Shown: positions 49,944-59,689 of the stretch, one piece after another
Layout of the letters: every line of letters begins with the position of its first letter
How positions within the stretch are numbered: position 1 is the first letter of the stretch
Assembly (NCBI GenBank): GCA_022447225.1
Contig: JAKVAZ010000014.1
Span: 124,001-188,000, forward strand
Source of the DNA: Fuerstiella sp.
Lineage (GTDB): Bacteria; Planctomycetota; Planctomycetia; Planctomycetales; Planctomycetaceae
Direction: 5' to 3'
DNA: 64,000 nt
Translations under genes and position numbers: made by a program
The notes under the pieces: model-generated
Databases searched by the model: none
What the model was told of the DNA's origin: nothing
What the model saw: the letters and a program-made list of their open reading frames with translations, nothing else

Positions 49944-51197
49944 GTGCTAAAGATATTTCATACGGCAGACTGGCATCTGGGCCAATCTTTCTGCGGATTC
50001 GATCGGGATTTCGAACACGCGCGATTTCTGGAATGGCTGCTTGAGCAGCTGCAAAGACACCGTCCTGACGCGCTGCTGCTGTCCGGTGATGTTTTTGATT
50101 CCATCAATCCGTCGGCCGTTTCTCAAAAACGTTTTTACAACTTTCTGGCACGTTCTCATGAAGCACTGCCAGAGCTTCAGATGGTGATTACCGCCGGCAA
50201 TCATGACGCAGCGGCCCGGCTGGAAGCGCCCGCAGGTCTGCTGGACACGCTGAACATCACTGTGGTGGGAACCGTGAAACGTGACGACAGCGGTGCCATC
50301 GATACGGAACGTTTTCTTGTTCCGCTCAGAAACGCCCAGGGGATCATTGCCGGTATTGTGCTGGCGGTTCCGTTTTTACGACCTGCCGATGTTCCGCTTG
50401 TGCCGGATGCGGTCGACCCGTATCTCGATGGTATCCGTGAACTCTATCGACGTGTGTTTGAGGCTGCACTGCGAATGAGGTCCGGTGAGTCTGCAGATGC
50501 TGCTTTAATCGGGATGGGGCATTGTCATCTTTCCGGCGGTTCGGAGTCTCCCGATTCAGAACGCCGTCTGGTGGTGGGAGGTGCTGAGGCTCTTGCGGTT
50601 GATGTGTTTGATCCACAGCTGACCTATGTTGCTTTGGGGCATCTGCATCGAGCTCAGAGCTTTGACCAGGGACGGGTCCGATACAGCGGCAGTCCGATTC
50701 CGCTGTCCTTCGCCGAAACCGGTTATCATCATCAGATCCTGCAGGTCACTCTGGAAGGAAAAGAACGTGCCATTGTGGACAGGATTGAGGTCCCGCGAAG
50801 CACACCGCTGATCAGGATACCACCCGGTCAGTCCGGTCCGCTTGAGGACCTGATTCCGCATCTAAAGTCTCTGGATCTTGATGTTTCTGTGCCGCCTGAG
50901 CAGCATCCGTTTCTGGAAGTCCGTGTTCTGGAAGATGGTCCTGACCCAAATCGACGGGCGCGTATTGAACAGGCTCTCGGAGATCAGCCGGTCCGCCTGG
51001 CGTCGATCAAAGTGCAGCATGCGGCCGTCGACCAAACCGGCGCTGATGAAAACGATCAGTCCGGCACGGCTTCGTTGAGTGACGTCCGGCCGATGGACAT
51101 TTTCCTGTCTGCGTGGCAGGAAAAATATGAAAACGATCCCGGTCCGGACGTAATCGAAGCCCTGCGCGAGATCCTGATTCAGGAGTCCTGTTCCTGA
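49944..51197 (+). CDS. sbcD: Exonuclease SbcD (Mre11-type nuclease subunit)
   Basis: A 417-residue calcineurin-like nuclease with a GTG start. Metal-binding motifs are FHTADWHLGQ (Asp8, His10), LLSGDVFDSINPS, TAGNHD and GMGHCHLSGG, then VALGHLHRAQ. The capping domain follows, ending near DIFLSAWQEKYENDPG, a typical SbcD C-terminus. It forms the SbcCD complex that cuts hairpins and blocked DNA ends. The stop TGA shares a base with the ATG of sbcC (TGATG), so the subunits are translated together. Length and motifs match the family. Confidence 0.96.
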   Translation: MLKIFHTADWHLGQSFCGFDRDFEHARFLEWLLEQLQRHRPDALLLSGDVFDSINPSAVSQKRFYNFLARSHEALPELQMVITAGNHDAAARLEAPAGLLDTLNITVVGTVKRDDSGAIDTERFLVPLRNAQGIIAGIVLAVPFLRPADVPLVPDAVDPYLDGIRELYRRVFEAALRMRSGESADAALIGMGHCHLSGGSESPDSERRLVVGGAEALAVDVFDPQLTYVALGHLHRAQSFDQGRVRYSGSPIPLSFAETGYHHQILQVTLEGKERAIVDRIEVPRSTPLIRIPPGQSGPLEDLIPHLKSLDLDVSVPPEQHPFLEVRVLEDGPDPNRRARIEQALGDQPVRLASIKVQHAAVDQTGADENDQSGTASLSDVRPMDIFLSAWQEKYENDPGPDVIEALREILIQESCS

Positions 51198-54100
51198 TGA
51201 GGATTCTGCGGATCACTGTCAACAACATTGCCTCACTGGCGGGCACTCATACGGTCGATTTCACCTGTGATCCCCTGCGGTCTGCCGGACTGTACGGGAT
51301 CAGCGGTGCCACGGGTGCCGGTAAAAGCAGCCTGCTGGATGCGCTGTGTCTGGCTCTGTTCGATGCCACTCCACGATTGAAACACGTGGGGCAGCTGCAG
51401 GAAATCAATCGGGGCGAGAAGCAGAACAACAGCCGAACGCTGCTGCGCCGCGGAACGGCCGCCGGAATCGCGGAAGTGGCCTTTGTCGGCGTCGATTCTG
51501 AAATCTGGACCGCGCGCTGGAGCGTGCGGCGAAGTCGCAATCAGGTCGATGGCAGGTTGCTGGCTCCGGAAATGACTTTGTTCCGCGGCAACGTTCTGCC
51601 CGGACAGACGGGACCCGTTGAAGCCGGTGGAAAGAAGACACTGGTTCAGGAGGCCATCGTCGAAAAGCTGGGACTGACATTTGATCAGTTCACCCGAGCC
51701 GTGCTGCTGGCCCAAAATGAGTTCGCAACCTTTCTGAAATCCAGTGATCGTGAACGTGCCGAAATTCTGCAGACTCTGACCGGGACAGAACAGTTTGAAC
51801 GCATCTCCCGAGCTGTCTTCAGCCGTCATTCCGAAGAACGGCAGCAACTTGATGCGTTGCAGTCGCGTCTGGCAGGCAACGCGCCGCTGTCGGCCGATGA
51901 ACGCAGCAGTGCAGCAGCCAAATCTCAGGCGGCTTCAGAAATCGTTCGGCGTACCGAATCCGGACTGCACACCTGTGAGTCCCATGTTGCCTGGTTCCAG
52001 CGTTTGAAGTCGCTTCGTCAGGAGCTGGCACAGGCCTCCGAACAGCTGCGTGTCGCTCGCAGCGCCCGTGTACAGTCCACCGCACAGCGAAATGAACTGG
52101 AACAGACAGAACTGGCGATTCGTGAAGCATCCATTCTTTGGAAGGATCAGCAGGAGGCGGTTAGCAACGATCTGTCAGCCGAACAGACGCTGGCCCAGGC
52201 GTGCGAACAACAGGACACGCAGTTCCGACTGCTGAAACAATCGCAGGAGAAGCTCCGGACAACCCGGCAGGAACGAACACGAGTCTCAGCGGAACTGGAG
52301 TCAATTCAGCCATCATTGAAGACGGCTCGACAGCTTGATGCCCGGCTGCAGCCGCTGCAGCAACAGGCAGCACGGGCAGAAGATGCTTTCGACGCTGCAC
52401 GGAACGCTCACCAAACGGCAGTAACCGCGCTGTCCGCAGCCACAACCCGTCACGAACGGCTGTTGACCGATCAGCAGGATCTTCACAGGAAACGTGATCG
52501 TCTGGCTGCATTTGAACGGTTTGTCAGTGAGGCTTCCAAATGGCTGCATCTGCTGCGTGAGGCGATGACTGCTGAAACCGAAGTCGTGCAGGCAGACACC
52601 AAACGACAGGACCTGGACGATCGTTGCGCTGACGTGCAGCAACAGCGGGAATCCGTTCAAAAATCGATGGAGCAGGCCACAGAAAAATGGGAAACTGCAA
52701 AGCAGCAGCTGGCGGATGCGGAGTCCGTTGAACAGAAATTCGATGCAGAATCACTTGCCGAACAACGTCGTCGCTGTGACAGCGATGTCCTGGTTCTGCA
52801 GAATCTGATACAGGAGCTGGACCGGCACCACGAGCAGCTGACACAGCTGGATGCCGTCGCGGCTGAGCTCCGGGAACTCGAAGAACGGCTGGAGACTGAA
52901 TCCGCAACACTGCGCACGCTGACCGAACACCAGGTTCCCCGGGCTGATCGGGATCTGGAACTGGCTGAACGACAGTTAAGTCTGGTTGAAGCCGCGGTGG
53001 ACGACCATGCCACACGACTGCGAGCTGCGCTGCAGGACGCGGAGCCGTGTCCGGTTTGCGGATCCCGTGAACACCCCTATCAGTGCCATGCTCCGGATGC
53101 CGAATCGGCCGGTGTGCATGCGGCCAAGCAGCACGTTACAGAATTGCGAGTAACGCGGGACACTCTGAAAGAACAACAGCAACGTCAACTGCTGTGGATC
53201 GAATCCGCATCGAAACAAATCACCGGACTCAAACAGCAGCACCTGGCTTTGTATCAGGAAACGCAGGCCGTCACGTTTAGTCATGCGGATTCAGCGGTCG
53301 TTGCCGCGATTCTTGCTGCGGACCGTGAGTCGCGGCCTGCTATGGCTCAGGATCAATTGAGTGTCGCTTCCGGTTCACGCGAGCAGTGGGAACGTGAGGA
53401 ACAGGCTTATCGAACAGCTAGTGAAGACACGCGTGCCCGCCGAAAACAGGAAGAACATGCACGTCGGCAATGGGAGACGCAGCGGCAGCAGCAGGAGGTG
53501 TGTGAGCGGAAGCTGGCTGCTGTTCAGGCTGAATTCAAAGCGGCCCGACGAACGTGTGAATCAGCAGAACAGCGTCGCAAGAATGCGGATGTTGGACTGG
53601 GGGACCTGTGGAGTGGTCTGCCGGAATCACGGAATCAATATGAAACGGATTCAGAATCGTTCTGTGAGACCTTTGAACAGTCCACCCGTGACTGCGGGCA
53701 GATTGCCTCCGAACTGAACTCACTGACGCAGACCATTCAGACTCAGGTTGCCCGCATGGGGCCGCTGGAAGAAGCTGTCCGGCAATCCCGTCGTGCACTG
53801 GTTGCCGGTGAAGCTGAGTACAAAGCGGCCGCTGAGGCTCAGGAAGAATTACTGAAGCAGCGTGAGCAGTTGTTGAGTGGCCGGGCTGCCGATGACGTGG
53901 AAGCCGAACTGCTGCACGGGGTGCGTACCGCGGAGCAGGCAGCCGAATCAACAGCGGTTGCCTATCATCGTGCCGACAAACAGCAGCAGTCGGCAATGCA
54001 GCAACTGGAATCGGCCAAAAGTCTCAGGACGACCACCGCAGCCGAACTTCAGTCCGCAAAAAATCGGCTCACCACATGGATCGACCGGTTTGTCGTGCAG

Positions 54101-55198
54101 TATTCCAGACAACTGAGCATGGACGAACTTCAGCTGATGCTCAGTCGCGATCAGGACTGGATTGGTGATCAGCGGCAAAGACTGAAACAGCGTGATGACG
54201 ACGTCACGGCTGCTGAAAGCGCATTGAATGTTCATTCGGACCGAATTCAGCACCACGAAAAACAGCGACCCACGCCGGAAGAGGAACAGACCGTGATCAG
54301 GTCTCGTGATCAGCTGGTCGAGGAACTGAAACAGTGCAAAGCCGCTGAGACCCGTGCGGCCGCGGTCTTGACCAGTGACGATCAGCGACGTGAGCAGAAT
54401 GCGGCGCTGGCGCGGGAGTTAACACAGCGAGAAGCCACTGCCGCGCCCTGGATCAAGCTGAATGATCTGATTGGCTCAAAGGAGGGAGACAAGTTCCGTA
54501 TGATCGCTCAAAGACGCACGCTGGATGTGCTGTTGAGCTATGCCAATCAGCAGCTGAACCAGCTGGCGGTGCGGTATCGTCTGCAACGCCTGCCGGAGTC
54601 ACTGAATCTGATCGTGATTGACGAACTGATGGGAGACCAGCGACGTTCGGTGCATTCACTTTCCGGAGGTGAATCATTTCTTGTGTCTTTGTCGCTGGCT
54701 CTTGGTCTGGCGTCACTGACGTCCAGTCGCATGCGAATTGAATCGCTGTTCATTGACGAAGGGTTTGGCAGTCTTGATCCGGAGACGTTGAATACGGCGA
54801 TGAATGCCCTGATGCATCTGGAAGCACAGGGCCGCAAAGTTGGCGTGATTTCGCATGTGACGGAGATGACGGATGCCATTCCGGTTCAGGTTCAGGTCGT
54901 GAAACGCAAAGGCGGGGCATCCAAAGTCGTGGTTCCGGGAGCGCCCGGTCCTGCGGGTTTACCGGTGACCTCCGCCGCAGCGTCTTTGACGACTTACGAA
55001 GCTCCGTCATCCGACATTGATCTGATTGCCGGTCGGATCGTGGAAATCCTCACACGAGAATCTCAGTCCGGCAAAGTCAAGGTTTCCATGCGAGCGCTGA
55101 GAAGCGAACTGGGCTGTGGTGCGGGTGACTTCAAGGCGGCTCAAAACCTGCTGCAGGATCAGGTGACCGTGGAATCCCGCAGCCTGCGACTGAGGTAA
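51197..55198 (+). CDS. sbcC: Exonuclease SbcC (Rad50-type SMC ATPase) with C-terminal extension
   Basis: A 1333-residue SMC-like ATPase. Walker A GATGAGKSS is at 37-45, followed by a very long Gln/Glu/Arg-rich coiled coil broken by the zinc hook CPVCGSREHP (Cys618, Cys621). The C-terminal half ATPase has the signature LSGGESFLVSLSLALG (about 1155) and Walker B SLFIDEGFGSLDPE (about 1184). The ATPase region ends near 1235 (ISHVTEMTDAIPVQVQVV). Beyond it are ~95 more residues: a Pro/Ala/Ser linker, then a compact helical region (VKVSMRALRSELGCGAGDF) with winged-helix-like spacing, which most SbcC proteins lack. Together with SbcD it processes DNA ends. The hairpin at 55.4 kb may end the transcript. 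Confidence 0.95.
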   Translation: MRILRITVNNIASLAGTHTVDFTCDPLRSAGLYGISGATGAGKSSLLDALCLALFDATPRLKHVGQLQEINRGEKQNNSRTLLRRGTAAGIAEVAFVGVDSEIWTARWSVRRSRNQVDGRLLAPEMTLFRGNVLPGQTGPVEAGGKKTLVQEAIVEKLGLTFDQFTRAVLLAQNEFATFLKSSDRERAEILQTLTGTEQFERISRAVFSRHSEERQQLDALQSRLAGNAPLSADERSSAAAKSQAASEIVRRTESGLHTCESHVAWFQRLKSLRQELAQASEQLRVARSARVQSTAQRNELEQTELAIREASILWKDQQEAVSNDLSAEQTLAQACEQQDTQFRLLKQSQEKLRTTRQERTRVSAELESIQPSLKTARQLDARLQPLQQQAARAEDAFDAARNAHQTAVTALSAATTRHERLLTDQQDLHRKRDRLAAFERFVSEASKWLHLLREAMTAETEVVQADTKRQDLDDRCADVQQQRESVQKSMEQATEKWETAKQQLADAESVEQKFDAESLAEQRRRCDSDVLVLQNLIQELDRHHEQLTQLDAVAAELRELEERLETESATLRTLTEHQVPRADRDLELAERQLSLVEAAVDDHATRLRAALQDAEPCPVCGSREHPYQCHAPDAESAGVHAAKQHVTELRVTRDTLKEQQQRQLLWIESASKQITGLKQQHLALYQETQAVTFSHADSAVVAAILAADRESRPAMAQDQLSVASGSREQWEREEQAYRTASEDTRARRKQEEHARRQWETQRQQQEVCERKLAAVQAEFKAARRTCESAEQRRKNADVGLGDLWSGLPESRNQYETDSESFCETFEQSTRDCGQIASELNSLTQTIQTQVARMGPLEEAVRQSRRALVAGEAEYKAAAEAQEELLKQREQLLSGRAADDVEAELLHGVRTAEQAAESTAVAYHRADKQQQSAMQQLESAKSLRTTTAAELQSAKNRLTTWIDRFVVQYSRQLSMDELQLMLSRDQDWIGDQRQRLKQRDDDVTAAESALNVHSDRIQHHEKQRPTPEEEQTVIRSRDQLVEELKQCKAAETRAAAVLTSDDQRREQNAALARELTQREATAAPWIKLNDLIGSKEGDKFRMIAQRRTLDVLLSYANQQLNQLAVRYRLQRLPESLNLIVIDELMGDQRRSVHSLSGGESFLVSLSLALGLASLTSSRMRIESLFIDEGFGSLDPETLNTAMNALMHLEAQGRKVGVISHVTEMTDAIPVQVQVVKRKGGASKVVVPGAPGPAGLPVTSAAASLTTYEAPSSDIDLIAGRIVEILTRESQSGKVKVSMRALRSELGCGAGDFKAAQNLLQDQVTVESRSLRLR

Positions 55199-55483
55199 CA
55201 GTTCCGGTGGCGGTGGCTGGGGCGATCGCGCAAGGCGTTGACGTTCGGCATTCCGCAGAAACATCAAATCGGGCTGTGGCCAGGGACTGTTTGTCCTCAA
55301 TGCTTCGAGCGTTCCATCACTGAGGAATCTTTCATCACCCGGCAGCATTGGCCGTCGGTGGTCTTCGTGGATGCAGGAACTTCCCGGCCCGGCGTTCCGA
55401 AGCCGGAGCTTCGGAACGAGATGAAAGAACATGGAGCGGATCAGACACAATGATCGCTTCATGTCGGGCCGCATTCTAACTGC
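55199..55483. other. Intergenic between sbcC and the duplicated short-ORF locus
   Basis: A 285-bp gap after sbcC with no supportable gene. Open frames here on both strands (55238-55453 plus, 55007-55474 minus) contain peptide text that comes from the repeat element, not from a protein. It contains the REP-like hairpin listed separately. Confidence 0.6.
55393..55418. repeat. REP-like palindrome / possible terminator hairpin
   Basis: An inverted repeat with an 11-bp perfect stem (CGTTCCGAAGC at 55393-55403 and its complement at 55408-55418) and a CGGA loop. It is preceded by a GGAACTTCCCGGCCCGG-type segment. Translated on the minus strand this gives VPKLRLRNAG, a peptide text I recall from many spurious planctomycete ORFs, which suggests a dispersed intergenic palindromic element. 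No T-run follows, so it is not a standard rho-independent terminator, although it could stop or protect the sbcDC transcript. Confidence 0.7.
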
Positions 55484-55735
55484 TTACCACCAGATCCGGT
55501 CGATGTTTGCGTGGTGGCTGTAAAACACAGGATCGTCCGGGGAGTAATAAATGGCAGACGGATCGCTCCTGTCTTCACCCACAACCATTTCGACGATGTC
55601 AAAGGCTTCGTCTGCGGTGTATCCGGCATCCACTAAATCCAACCACAGGTGCATTTCGGGACTAATTGCAGATGCCTCGTTAGCACACAGGGCCACAGAT
55701 ATGGTCAGGGTCAGGATTGCGATGCAGCGTTTCAT
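55484..55735 (-). CDS. Short secreted peptide, copy A, ending in a tyrosinase CuB motif
   Basis: An 83-codon frame from ATG 55735. The first ~23 residues are a signal peptide (MKRCIAILTLTISVALCANEASA). A ~30-residue domain follows (ISPEMHLWLDLVDAGYTADE, then AFDIVEMVV), nearly identical to copy B at 56.2 kb. After MVV the sequence diverges completely and ends with YSPDDPVFYSHHANIDRIWW and a stop. That tail is the copper-B motif of tyrosinases (DPxFxxHHxNxDRxW), with nothing else of the enzyme present. It may be a real small secreted protein or a fusion left by a deletion that removed most of a tyrosinase gene. AGAAAGA-like sequence precedes the start. It could be a pseudogene; expression is not shown. 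Confidence 0.5.
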   Translation of the reverse strand: MKRCIAILTLTISVALCANEASAISPEMHLWLDLVDAGYTADEAFDIVEMVVGEDRSDPSAIYYSPDDPVFYSHHANIDRIWW

Positions 55736-55869
55736 GGGGCGTCTTTCTGAAGTGGAGGAAGTTAGTGTTCTGTGGAATGAACCTGCGTACCAGATCAGTG
55801 AGTTGCCGAAATTTGAAAACAATGACCGAATCGGCTGCTTTGCATGAAAACAATACGGTGCGTGCAAAA
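55579..55869. repeat. 291-bp direct repeat, copy A
   Basis: This segment aligns without gaps to 56174-56464 (offset 595 bp). I counted about 15 mismatches, so roughly 95% identity. It covers the first ~52 codons of copy A and ~130 bp of its upstream region. The right-hand edge (upstream side of the ORF) ends in GTGCAAAA in both copies and the left-hand edge in CCACAACC. Identity stops sharply at both ends. Confidence 0.92.
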
Positions 55870-56060
55870 AGCCGCAGCAAAAACCTGCAACACCGGCACC
55901 AGACCTCTGCGCCCGCCGGTTCCCTTCTGCCGTTGCTGCATGCTGGGTGTACACTTTGATTAATGCCTCAGCGTCTGCCTGTTGCATCACACGTATTAGA
56001 TCCGGATTTGAGACATAAGTGGCGCGTTTGCTTCCTGTTCCGGATGTCGCAGATTTACCT

Positions 56061-56330
56061 TTAATCTCCGCAGATACCACATGAATAGCATCTGTAGCCA
56101 TTTCGACCGGACCGGTTCCCTTTTTCGTAACTGAAGTCGTAGTTAAAAATTCCTGATGTTCCCTGGTCGTTTTCCACAACCATTTCGACGATGTCAAAGG
56201 CTTCGTCTGCGGTGTATCCGGCATCCACTAAATCCAACCACAGGCCCATTTCAGGACTGATCGCAGATGCCTCGTCAGCACACAGGGCCACAGATATGGT
56301 CAGGGTCAGGATTGCGATGCAGCGTTTCAT
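56061..56330 (-). CDS. Short secreted peptide, copy B
   Basis: An 89-codon frame from ATG 56330, preceded by an AGAGAG ribosome-like site. The signal peptide (MKRCIAILTLTISVALCADEASA) and the domain ISPEMGLWLDLVDAGYTADE, AFDIVEMVV match copy A with only two amino-acid changes (D/N and G/H). After MVV the tail is unrelated: ENDQGTSGIFNYDFSYEKGN and a Cys-containing end (CYSCGICGD). The shared six base changes in the coding part give only two amino-acid changes, which hints at selection but is too few to prove it. No family recognised. The tail may have been acquired by recombination, so the frame could be a damaged gene. Confidence 0.5.
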   Translation of the reverse strand: MKRCIAILTLTISVALCADEASAISPEMGLWLDLVDAGYTADEAFDIVEMVVENDQGTSGIFNYDFSYEKGNRSGRNGYRCYSCGICGD

Positions 56331-56464
56331 GGGGCGTCTCTCTGAAGTGGAGGGTGTTAAGGTTCTGTGGAATGAACCTGCGTACCACTTCAGTGAGTCG
56401 CCGAAATTTGAAAACAATGACCGAATCGGATGCTTTGCATGAAAACAATACGGTGCGTGCAAAA
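56174..56464. repeat. 291-bp direct repeat, copy B
   Basis: The partner of the segment at 55579-55869, in the same orientation. The 304-bp spacer between the copies (55870-56173) carries copy B's unique tail and, in the frame of copy A, a protein-like stretch (PDLIRVMQQADAEALIKVYT) that may be a relic of another gene. Confidence 0.92.
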
Positions 56465-56567
56465 TGTTGTGGCAAAATGCCCCAGGAAACTGTCACGAAA
56501 ATAACACTTCCGATAACTGTCCTGCAGTAGCGATCTCGCCAACAACAATTTTTCCCTCCGTCACAGG

Positions 56568-58544
56568 CTACCACCCGCCTCCGCCGCCACCTCCGCCGCC
56601 ACCACCGGAAAACCCGCCGCCGGAGAATCCACTGCCGGAGGAACTGCTGCCACTGGAACTGCCGGGAGCTGTACTTGACGACGAAATCGCCTGACCCAGT
56701 GAGCTGCCCAGAATGGATGCGAAATCGCTACGGGAGGAAGGATTCCAGTAGCGACCGCGGTACCAGTCAGGATGGTAGTCCCCTGGTTGACCTGAGGTGA
56801 TGGAAGTTTCCTGCAGGATCTCGGAGAATCTTTCCGCCCATTTGTTTTCCACATCCAGGGCCAGTGCATACGGCAGGTATTTTTCAAATAGCTCAGGCGT
56901 CTGCTCCGGTGGATGCATCCGTTGCAGGTATTCCTGTTCAGCGGTGCCCAGGTACATTCGAAACCCCTCAATCTGATCCATGATCCGGCGCCCTTCCACG
57001 GTTGGCTGCCTGATCAGATGCCAGAAAGTCCAGTTGAGGGCCACCAGACCAACGAGCATCGGCATCATCCAGATGGTTGTCGCCCGGACCAGGATGACAA
57101 GTCCGAACGTTTCACCGATGAAGAACGGAATGGCAAAGACCGTGAGGAACAGTGCTCCGCCGAAGGATCCGAGGCGTTTCTGAGTATTGCGTCTTAATGC
57201 CAGCGCACTTCGCCACGTTGCGACGACCATGCCCGCGAGCGCGCCGCACCCACAGGTCCAGATGGAAAGCCAGACGCCCAGGAAACCAACGATGCCGAGG
57301 GCCTGCCATCCGCTGCACACCGCTCCCGCCATCACGGCCAGAGCCGAAAGCAACCAGCCAGGCAACAGCCACCAGCGATTCCTGAAAAACAATTTGCCTT
57401 CAAACTCACTGGAAAGTCGTTCACCCAGTTTCTCAATGGCCTTGCCGATCCTGGAGTGATTTTTCTGTTCAAGTTTGATCGAGCTGGAATTCAGCAGCGT
57501 CCTGGCAATTTTTTGCTCGCCGGGTGACAGCTTGCCCTTTTGTGAATCGGTGTTGCGCCGCAGAGTGTACTCACCGTCCTCCTCGTCGATGGTCAGCCAT
57601 TTCTTAACCGCCATATTCAGCAAAGCTGCGGTAAAGCACTTGCGGTCGTAGCCGCAGCGGTGCAGGAAACGCATACATGCCGGCGGCAGGTCCAGCGGCG
57701 GTTGAAACAGTGGAACGATCGTATTGCCGGGCGGGTCGCGTCCGACAGCGACCCACGCGCAGATATAATAGACAAACACCACAAGCAACCCGCCAAGCAT
57801 CACCCACAGGGCGAGGTTGGCTTTGAAGTACAGTTTGCTCCGCTCCCTTTTCGTGGGCTCATCGACAAAGCCTTTGGAAAAACCGACGACAACGGTCAGT
57901 CCTTCGCGAGGTCCCAGGACGCGGGTAGTGGCGAAACTGACGGTCCCGTCTGCTTCGTCCACCTGCGATGTCAGATGTTTCGCCCGGGAATTCTGCAGGC
58001 CCGTATAACCTTCGTGGGTCAGCTTATCCCGCGGCACGTCCGACGGCAGCCGCACCCGGGCCGTGGCCTGCTCAATCGGGAACTCCCAGCCATTGCCGGT
58101 GACGTTCCAGTACAGTTCGTCGTGTTCCTCAAAGTACCCCAGCTGGTAGTTCGTGGTGTAGATGATTTCGTAAGTGTATTTGTCCGGTGGTAGAGTGTAG
58201 TTCTTACGGCCGATGTAAAGCCGAACGCCATTTGACTGCTGTTCGGTGTGATAGGGTTCGTCTGTGCCGTCACGTTTAACGGAGACAACGTCAAACGGAA
58301 GTTCGATTCGGACAAAGTACCGGGACCTGTAAAGGGTGGGGAAGTCACGATAGATGCCGCGTTTGATCCTGTTTTGCCCGGAGGTGACCGTGATTGTCTC
58401 GGTGACTCGTAACGATCCGTCCCTGAGGACGTCGATGTCGCTGTGGAAGCTGTGAATTTTCTCCGACTGCGCGACGGTGATCGAAGTTGATGTGAGCACG
58501 ACGAGCCCGGCGATAAGCGATCCAACGGCTTGACGAACTGACAT
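56568..58544 (-). CDS. DUF2207 membrane protein
   Basis: A 658-residue exported/membrane protein. A signal peptide (VGSLIAGLVVLTSTSITVAQ) leads into the DUF2207 extracytoplasmic beta domain: IHSFHSDIDVLRDGSLRVTE, KRGIYRDFPTLYRS, YEIIYTTNYQLGYFEEHDEL, YWNVTGNGWEFPIEQA. A membrane segment lies at about 245-265, then a soluble region with helix-turn-helix-like elements (CGYDRKCFTAALLNMAVKKW), three or four more membrane segments (about 390-500), and a cytosolic domain ending in a Ser then Gly run with a final Trp (GFSGGG...GGW), the known style of this family. It is 13 bp downstream of lemA, one operon. Both face the SpeD-like cassette divergently. Role unknown; context links DUF2207 and LemA to envelope stress. 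Confidence 0.92.
   Translation of the reverse strand: MSVRQAVGSLIAGLVVLTSTSITVAQSEKIHSFHSDIDVLRDGSLRVTETITVTSGQNRIKRGIYRDFPTLYRSRYFVRIELPFDVVSVKRDGTDEPYHTEQQSNGVRLYIGRKNYTLPPDKYTYEIIYTTNYQLGYFEEHDELYWNVTGNGWEFPIEQATARVRLPSDVPRDKLTHEGYTGLQNSRAKHLTSQVDEADGTVSFATTRVLGPREGLTVVVGFSKGFVDEPTKRERSKLYFKANLALWVMLGGLLVVFVYYICAWVAVGRDPPGNTIVPLFQPPLDLPPACMRFLHRCGYDRKCFTAALLNMAVKKWLTIDEEDGEYTLRRNTDSQKGKLSPGEQKIARTLLNSSSIKLEQKNHSRIGKAIEKLGERLSSEFEGKLFFRNRWWLLPGWLLSALAVMAGAVCSGWQALGIVGFLGVWLSIWTCGCGALAGMVVATWRSALALRRNTQKRLGSFGGALFLTVFAIPFFIGETFGLVILVRATTIWMMPMLVGLVALNWTFWHLIRQPTVEGRRIMDQIEGFRMYLGTAEQEYLQRMHPPEQTPELFEKYLPYALALDVENKWAERFSEILQETSITSGQPGDYHPDWYRGRYWNPSSRSDFASILGSSLGQAISSSSTAPGSSSGSSSSGSGFSGGGFSGGGGGGGGGGGW
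56571..56700. repeat. Low-complexity Gly/Ser-coding tract
   Basis: Within the 3' end of the DUF2207 gene, CCN repeats (plus strand) encode a run of at least eleven glycines and a Ser/Gly tract. Such tails are common to the family and length variation by slippage is likely. It is coding, not a separate element. Confidence 0.8.
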
Positions 58545-58557
58545 CGTTCACCTTTTC

Positions 58558-59133
58558 TTATTTGGTGTCTTTGAATTCAACTTTCGGGAGTTCGCGTTCG
58601 GTCAGACTCTCCAGTTCAAAAAACTCAGCCGGCGTGAATTCAAACAGACCGGCAATCAGATTTGACGGGAACGACTCCACTTGGATATTGAAATCGCGCA
58701 CGGTACCGTTGTAGTATCTGCGCGCCTTCTGCAGGTTGTCTTCAATACCGGACAACTGCTGCTGCAGGTCCAGAAAATTGTTCCCTGCCTTTAATTCGGG
58801 ATAGTTTTCGGCCACGGCGAACAGGGTCTTTAAGCCGGCAGACAGAGCGTTCTCATCGCGTTGCTTGTCGGAGATTGACTGATCTCCCATCGCTCGTAAC
58901 CGCAAACGGACTACTTCGTCCAGCACGCTCCGCTCAAAATCGGCGTAGCCCTGCACTGTGTTGATGAGGTTTGGAATCAGGTTGTGTCGCTGTTTCAGCT
59001 GTACATCGACACCGCTGAAAGCTTCGCGAACAAGCATGCGGCTGCGAACCAGCCTGTTGTAGATCGCCACCAGAATGACGCTCGAGATCAGGGCGATGAC
59101 CAGCACGACCGCCAGGAAATAGATGCCCTGCAT
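58558..59133 (-). CDS. lemA: LemA family protein
   Basis: A 191-residue protein with one N-terminal membrane segment (GIYFLAVVLVIALISSVILV), then the LemA helical bundle: YNRLVRSRMLVREAFSGVDV, QLKQRHNLIPNLINTVQGYA, AENYPELKAGNNFLDLQQQL, SGIEDNLQKARRYYNGTVRD and FNIQVESFPSNLIAGLFEFT. Length and motifs are those of the family. It sits 13 bp before the DUF2207 gene. LemA proteins are membrane-anchored helical bundles of unclear role, commonly found with DUF2207 or TPM-domain genes. Together with the cassette opposite it may form a membrane-stress module. Confidence 0.95.
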   Translation of the reverse strand: MQGIYFLAVVLVIALISSVILVAIYNRLVRSRMLVREAFSGVDVQLKQRHNLIPNLINTVQGYADFERSVLDEVVRLRLRAMGDQSISDKQRDENALSAGLKTLFAVAENYPELKAGNNFLDLQQQLSGIEDNLQKARRYYNGTVRDFNIQVESFPSNLIAGLFEFTPAEFFELESLTERELPKVEFKDTK

Positions 59134-59689
59134 AATTTACAGCTCCCAGGCTGAGTTCACGCTTGCCATGTTTTAACCTGATCCGCGTCGCGGGTTTTTG
59201 ATCAGGAGCCGTTGTCTGGCTTCTGCTGCTGTACTGACGAAATCGTCTGCACCATTTCTATCTCCATTGTAGTAGTTCGTCGACATCCAGCAGTTGCCGG
59301 CAGGATTTGTGAAACAGCACTCACTGGCATTGTGCTGAACTGACGGCCCTGCAGTTCCTTTGATTTTGCAAAACAGAGATGTTTTCGTCAACGGTGAGCA
59401 GCACTTTCCACGTTGCCGGTATGCCTCCAGGCAGGAGTACCGGCTTTTTTCCTCCGTCTCAGGCTCCCGTCCGGAACTGCCTGTCCCTGACGCTCCGCTT
59501 CGATCGTTTCATCAATGAGCAGCATTCCCCTGACGTGACTACCCCGGTTGTGAAGCTGTCTGTCGGAACCGGATTCAGCCATGCCGGCAATGAACACGAT
59601 TTTCGAATCAGGGGAAGTTGGTTCCCCCTGATTCCTCGTTCTGTTACGGTGTTTTACTCAATTGCCACGCACTCCGGCGGAGCAACCTA
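59134..59689. other. Intergenic, divergent promoters (lemA / SpeD-like)
   Basis: A 556-bp gap, the largest non-coding stretch of the right end, between lemA (minus) and the SpeD-like gene (plus). A 72-codon minus-strand frame (59173-59391) starts only with TTG and shows no family. The cassette promoter is probably here. No obvious inverted repeat was found. Confidence 0.5.

Follow-up and report, generated by a model that had tools for sequence, protein, structure and literature searches.

The PE and PPE proteins of mycobacteria are a multigene family with a conserved N-terminus and a variable C-terminus, and their polymorphism has been linked to recombination (PMC3034920). Polymorphic toxins combine a constant N-terminus used in trafficking with C-terminal parts that are swapped by recombination, and they are sporadically distributed (PMC3482391). 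The two genes described here, copies A and B of Fuerstiella sp., resemble the PE/PPE proteins in having a constant, putative export end followed by a variable rest. In contrast to PE/PPE, the constant part here consists of a predicted signal peptide, a 24-residue module and a noncoding 5' block, and the family is far smaller and occurs in planctomycetes. With the polymorphic toxins, A and B share a constant end predicted to serve trafficking, different C-terminal parts and a sporadic distribution, but the tails here are about 30 residues long, no solo tail cassettes were found in the window's own genome, and a Pfam search of the stretch between B and A recognised no adjacent immunity gene. No Pfam match to a PE domain, a PPE domain or a toxin family was obtained with A, B and nine family proteins. 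A third point of comparison is provided by the bacterial tyrosinases and type-3 copper proteins (PF00264). Tail A and some proteins of a sister genome carry the last CuB helix motif of these proteins, HHxxxDxxW, whereas CuA and most of CuB are missing.

Planctomycetes have many genes without known relatives. The bacterial family to which A and B belong is previously undescribed, and our literature search found no earlier description of such a family in Fuerstiella or planctomycetes. We consider it likely that A and B are part of a mosaic family that is restricted to one lineage and dispersed in the genome, codes for small, probably exported proteins and was diversified by duplication and by recombination anchored in the head and the module. 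On a small scale, the family illustrates how bacterial genes can be built by mixing short parts. The DNA of two related genomes directly shows the joins, the parts and at least one recombinant, so that the origin of new small, putatively exported planctomycete proteins can be studied here.

Two neighbouring genes with one head and two tails

The window is the whole stretch of 64,000 nucleotides of Fuerstiella sp. DNA that was analysed. Copies A and B are neighbours on its minus strand with a spacing of 595 bp, and they are each other's closest relatives in the head. Their features are as follows.

55484..55735, minus strand: copy A, 83-aa predicted secreted protein with a tyrosinase CuB-like tail (open reading frame; Pfam PF00264, E 1.5e-9)
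55736..55881, minus strand: conserved upstream block of copy A (alignment A5 and model R1, E 1e-38)
55667..55735, minus strand: predicted signal peptide of copy A, MKRCIAILTLTISVALCANEASA (by eye from the sequence; conserved in the family)
55580..55651, minus strand: 24-residue module of copy A, HLWLDLVDAGYTADEAFDIVEMVV (profile A4, E 1e-14 in its own genome)
55484..55579, minus strand: variable tail A, with one tyrosinase CuB-type motif, SHHANIDRIWW (Pfam, solved structures; related to the tail of sister gene S1)
56061..56330, minus strand: copy B, 89-aa predicted secreted protein with a Cys-containing tail (open reading frame; tail homologous to that of sister gene S3)
56331..56499, minus strand: conserved upstream block of copy B, with the inverted repeat TTTTGCA...TGCAAA (model R1, E 7e-41; pairing counts)
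56262..56330, minus strand: predicted signal peptide of copy B (by eye from the sequence; conserved in the family)
56175..56246, minus strand: 24-residue module of copy B (profile A4, E 3e-14)
56061..56174, minus strand: variable tail B, last residues RCYSCGICGD (related to the S3 tail)

The original prediction, made from the letters of the window, described two same-strand copies of about 95% identity without indels, and the alignment bears this out. Copy A (55579-55881) and copy B (56174-56476) align without gaps over 303-304 bp at 93.4% identity (E 4e-132), and the 291-bp core is 95% identical. The repeat spans about 146 bp of upstream DNA, the predicted signal peptide and the module, and it ends at one codon; homology stops past codon 52 in each copy, in agreement with the abrupt divergence that had been claimed. 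The coding part differs at 6 of 156 nucleotides, giving three synonymous codons and two amino-acid changes. The upstream region had been called identical, which was too strong, as its 146 bp are conserved yet hold 14 differences (about 90% identity). The signal peptides of A and B can be written as MKRCIAILTLTISVALCA[ND]EASA and the modules as [HG]LWLDLVDAGYTADEAFDIVEMVV. By inspection, the N-terminus has the makings of a putative export signal, with Lys/Arg, a hydrophobic core and an ASA site.

A structured RNA in the upstream block was considered and rejected. The covariation support for the consensus fold was 0.24 kcal/mol, almost nil, and the block is therefore noted for its short inverted repeat only. 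The frame of copy A stays open in the 5' direction through the intergenic stretch (window 55736-56227, minus strand), making 246 codons in all. The open stretch between B and A gave no Pfam match except for the tyrosinase tail of A.

The tails of A and B

Tail A has 32 codons and tail B 38, each including the stop. The C-termini had been predicted to be unrelated, and a frameshift of one tail from the other had been named as the finding that would speak against this. No DNA similarity between the tails was detectable on either strand at any offset (shuffle fraction 0.87 plus, 0.08 minus); thus, neither tail is a frameshifted version of the other. Copy B has the Cys-containing tail that was expected of it.

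Copy A was correctly said to end in a tyrosinase motif. Its tail matches positions 177-209 of the 214 in the Pfam tyrosinase profile, and it also matches the CuB region of solved tyrosinases and haemocyanins (E 2e-5 for the solved tyrosinases). The homology is local to the CuB motif, and a complete domain with CuA and CuB is absent from copy A. A complete tyrosinase domain is likewise absent from its own genome and from the sister genome, and no donor tyrosinase gene was found. We take the CuB fragment in tail A to hold at most one of the six histidine ligands of type-3 copper and, therefore, tail A is not an enzyme. The possibility of an active tyrosinase was rejected on the short profile match as well as the lack of a complete tyrosinase in either genome. 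In our reading, a piece of a type-3 copper protein was captured as tail A, which could not work as a tyrosinase.

Further members and their distribution

It had been proposed that the genome and its relatives be searched for the repeated segment, and that several further copies with different tails would favour a cassette-like locus. The search returned two relatives in the same genome and nine genes in a sister genome. One of the two is a third gene, C (G000:C10:19014-19397). It shares the upstream block and the module with A and B and its signal peptide is related to theirs, but it has a different tail and an extra stretch ahead of the module. The other relative is a relic, a decayed module at C11:2206-2285. 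Directly upstream of the relic, at L010:1918-2147, lies a protein in which a unit of about 20 residues, ASPEAPDNVAILGQANGVS, occurs four times in near-identical form. The sister genome (G001), the MAG Fuerstiella sp. ALOHA_ZT_14, carries nine genes (S1-S9) with eleven full modules. Both Fuerstiella genomes are draft assemblies, of 33 and about 230 contigs. In A, B, C and S1-S6, the upstream block is followed by the signal peptide and then by the module. S8, whose upstream block is of the usual kind and whose signal peptide is related, lacks the module, and S7 and S9 have a second head type. These members, with their varied middles and tails, uphold the part of the original prediction in which one leader is joined to different tails. 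The idea of a strict cassette is not supported, since the window's own genome has no tail-only, silent or headless intact copies and the locus has no recombination site, dedicated recombinase or array.

Beyond these genomes the family is rare. A scan of about 85,000 species genomes, which is sensitive to fairly close relatives only, gave matches only in ALOHA_ZT_14 and on one Rubripirellula contig. The gene on this contig has a signal peptide and module without the upstream block. The contig, of Rubripirellula ANT-60, is short, at 7 kb with a coverage of 6.6, and could be misbinned. Module DNA was found in 2 of 398 genomes of the class, one being the window's own, and the module profile matched 1 of 392 genomes in the sample of the phylum, again the window's own. 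The third genome of the genus has no family members by the module profile or the upstream-block model. The upstream-block model found 12 sites (E <= 0.001) in 120 genomes of the taxonomic family; all were in the two Fuerstiella genomes, and each lies 5' of a family gene. The best account is a young, lineage-restricted family. A mobile element of viruses or plasmids was rejected, as no relatives were found in viral contigs or in plasmids. Comparison of the module with solved structures gave nothing credible, and the structure model of S3 was too poor for interpretation (pLDDT 42.6).

Mosaic architecture and constraint

An all-against-all DNA comparison showed that members have segments in common in conflicting combinations. 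The module is carried by nearly all of them, and the stretch between head and module varies from member to member, as does the tail after it. S5 and S6 are 97.3% identical upstream; the values for the signal peptide and for module plus tail are 98.3% and 98.2%, respectively. For the middle of S5 there is no matching sequence in S6, but the middle of S3 matches it at 92.4% identity. Judged by these identities, S5 is a clear recombinant, with head, module and tail from one paralog and the middle from another. S9 combines the head type of S7 with the middle of S1, S2 and S6 and the GGQEGE stretch of S3, S4 and S5. S7 has four modules, three of them within a 117-bp tandem repeat, and the middle of S1 and S6 is filled by 27-bp DPxDCP repeats. 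In S5, S6 and S9, the tail consists of part of a second module in another reading frame.

The two tails of the window also have counterparts among these genes. Tail B corresponds to that of S3, with 82% identity over 187 bp that take in the module and reach to the stop codon, where the homology ends. Tail A corresponds to that of S1 (80.6% over 36 bp; 0 of 200 shuffles reached the score). Both types recur in the sister genome on differently built genes. The tail types are thus older than the split between the two genomes, whereas the parts with which they are combined differ.

The tyrosinase-like middle of S3 and S5 has a pS of 0.263 and a pN of 0.030 and is, therefore, constrained as protein. 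The module is under moderate constraint, with a pooled dN/dS of about 0.5. The tails of B and S3 (pS 0.165, pN 0.182; few sites) show no purifying selection, and some tails may thus be decaying.

Origin of the family

The constant head of each member consists of a 5' region of about 150 bp and a predicted Sec-type signal peptide. A new member would arise when the head is duplicated. The duplication may be local, as from B to A, or may carry the head to remote places in variable DNA. Middles and tails would then be exchanged by homologous or template-switch recombination, for which the near-identical DNA of head and module could provide the anchors. Export is probable, judging from the predicted signal peptides. 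The common upstream block might also allow co-regulation, and the variation may be useful, for example in supplying varied extracellular binding peptides. The question opened is whether the common upstream block and module drive the shuffling. It is rather doubtful, in our view, that the family goes as far as a diversification system in which promoter-leader and module act as anchors and exported proteins are continually assembled, under selection, from pooled parts including unrelated enzyme fragments.

The main rival is neutral decay, in which heads of a decaying exported family became joined by chance to gene fragments, such as a lost tyrosinase or frame-shifted modules, without selection for tail diversity. 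The presence of a CuB tail although neither genome has a tyrosinase, the frame shift of the module tails, the unconstrained tails of B and S3 and the relic on C11 all fit this explanation, which possibly applies to some members. For the family at large it is unlikely, though to be taken seriously, as heads and modules remain open and conserved, the S3/S5 middle is under purifying selection, the homology of tail B to S3 stops exactly at the stop codon and the upstream blocks remain conserved.

A further explanation would make the 75 bp of module DNA a small selfish repeat with genes as its insertion targets, similar to the Rickettsia palindromic elements. Between contexts, copies of the module DNA are about 80-97% identical, and they are found in more than one frame. 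The Rubripirellula module is 96% identical over 57 bp to S5 and S6, compared to 72-85% for its signal-peptide region. These values would suit an inserting repeat, but full modules always lie in the same frame inside family proteins, the module contains no palindrome, and a DNA search of 398 genomes found no module copies in unrelated genes. We regard a selfish repeat as improbable.

The original prediction had also offered a recombination scar, and the simplest view of A is that B's head was duplicated locally and linked to another tail. The position of A and B as same-strand neighbours and closest relatives agrees with one tandem duplication of B's head that acquired a new tail and has no wider meaning. 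Such a scar accounts for the origin of A only. With other tails, head and module are also found elsewhere in the genome and in nine cases in the sister genome, which has counterparts of both tails; these further copies rule out a local scar as the full account, and we give it very little credence. Programmed tail switching, in which an expressed head recombines with a silent tail store as in pilin or surface-antigen systems, would explain a constant head, variable tail and common anchors, but it is highly improbable and unsupported here since the genome has no silent tails, the members are dispersed as single genes that have an upstream block of their own, and A/B has no dedicated machinery such as an invertase or site-specific array. 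The diversity seems to have come from mosaicism among paralogs in evolution, and not from switching at the A/B locus.

Genomic setting

Comparison with the sister genome places A and B in the following segment.

49974..59347, no strand assigned: lineage-variable segment with sbcD, sbcC, A, B, a DUF2207 gene and lemA (blastn of the window against G001:C222)

The flanks on both sides are 82-92% identical to the sister contig by blastn, and the segment is absent from the syntenic place, where about 1.6 kb is found instead. This replacement holds another gene, zinc-ribbon/thioredoxin-like by inspection. The third genome of the genus (G002) retains sbcD and sbcC. Reciprocally, the window's genome lacks the segment with S3 and S4 at the corresponding site, and around S2 synteny is lost just past a tRNA-Gln. 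A/B, S3/S4 and S2 thus adjoin synteny breaks, and the loci examined sit in variable DNA. Recombinase or integrase genes lie within a few kb of S1 and S5, and the Rubripirellula copy adjoins a transposase/integrase-like gene. No insertion boundary common to the loci was established.

Other elements were seen near individual members. At L051:5833-7147, about 2.5 kb from S5, a phage-type integrase gene ends beside a tRNA-Sec gene. Near copy C (L009:7545-7620), its upstream block begins about 150 bp downstream of a tRNA-Arg(CCT) gene on the same strand. Just downstream of copy A, at window 55391-55427, there is a palindromic element, ttccgaagccggagcttcggaac, a REP-like repeat that occurs several times in other genomes of the taxonomic family (G017, G025, G029 and G035).
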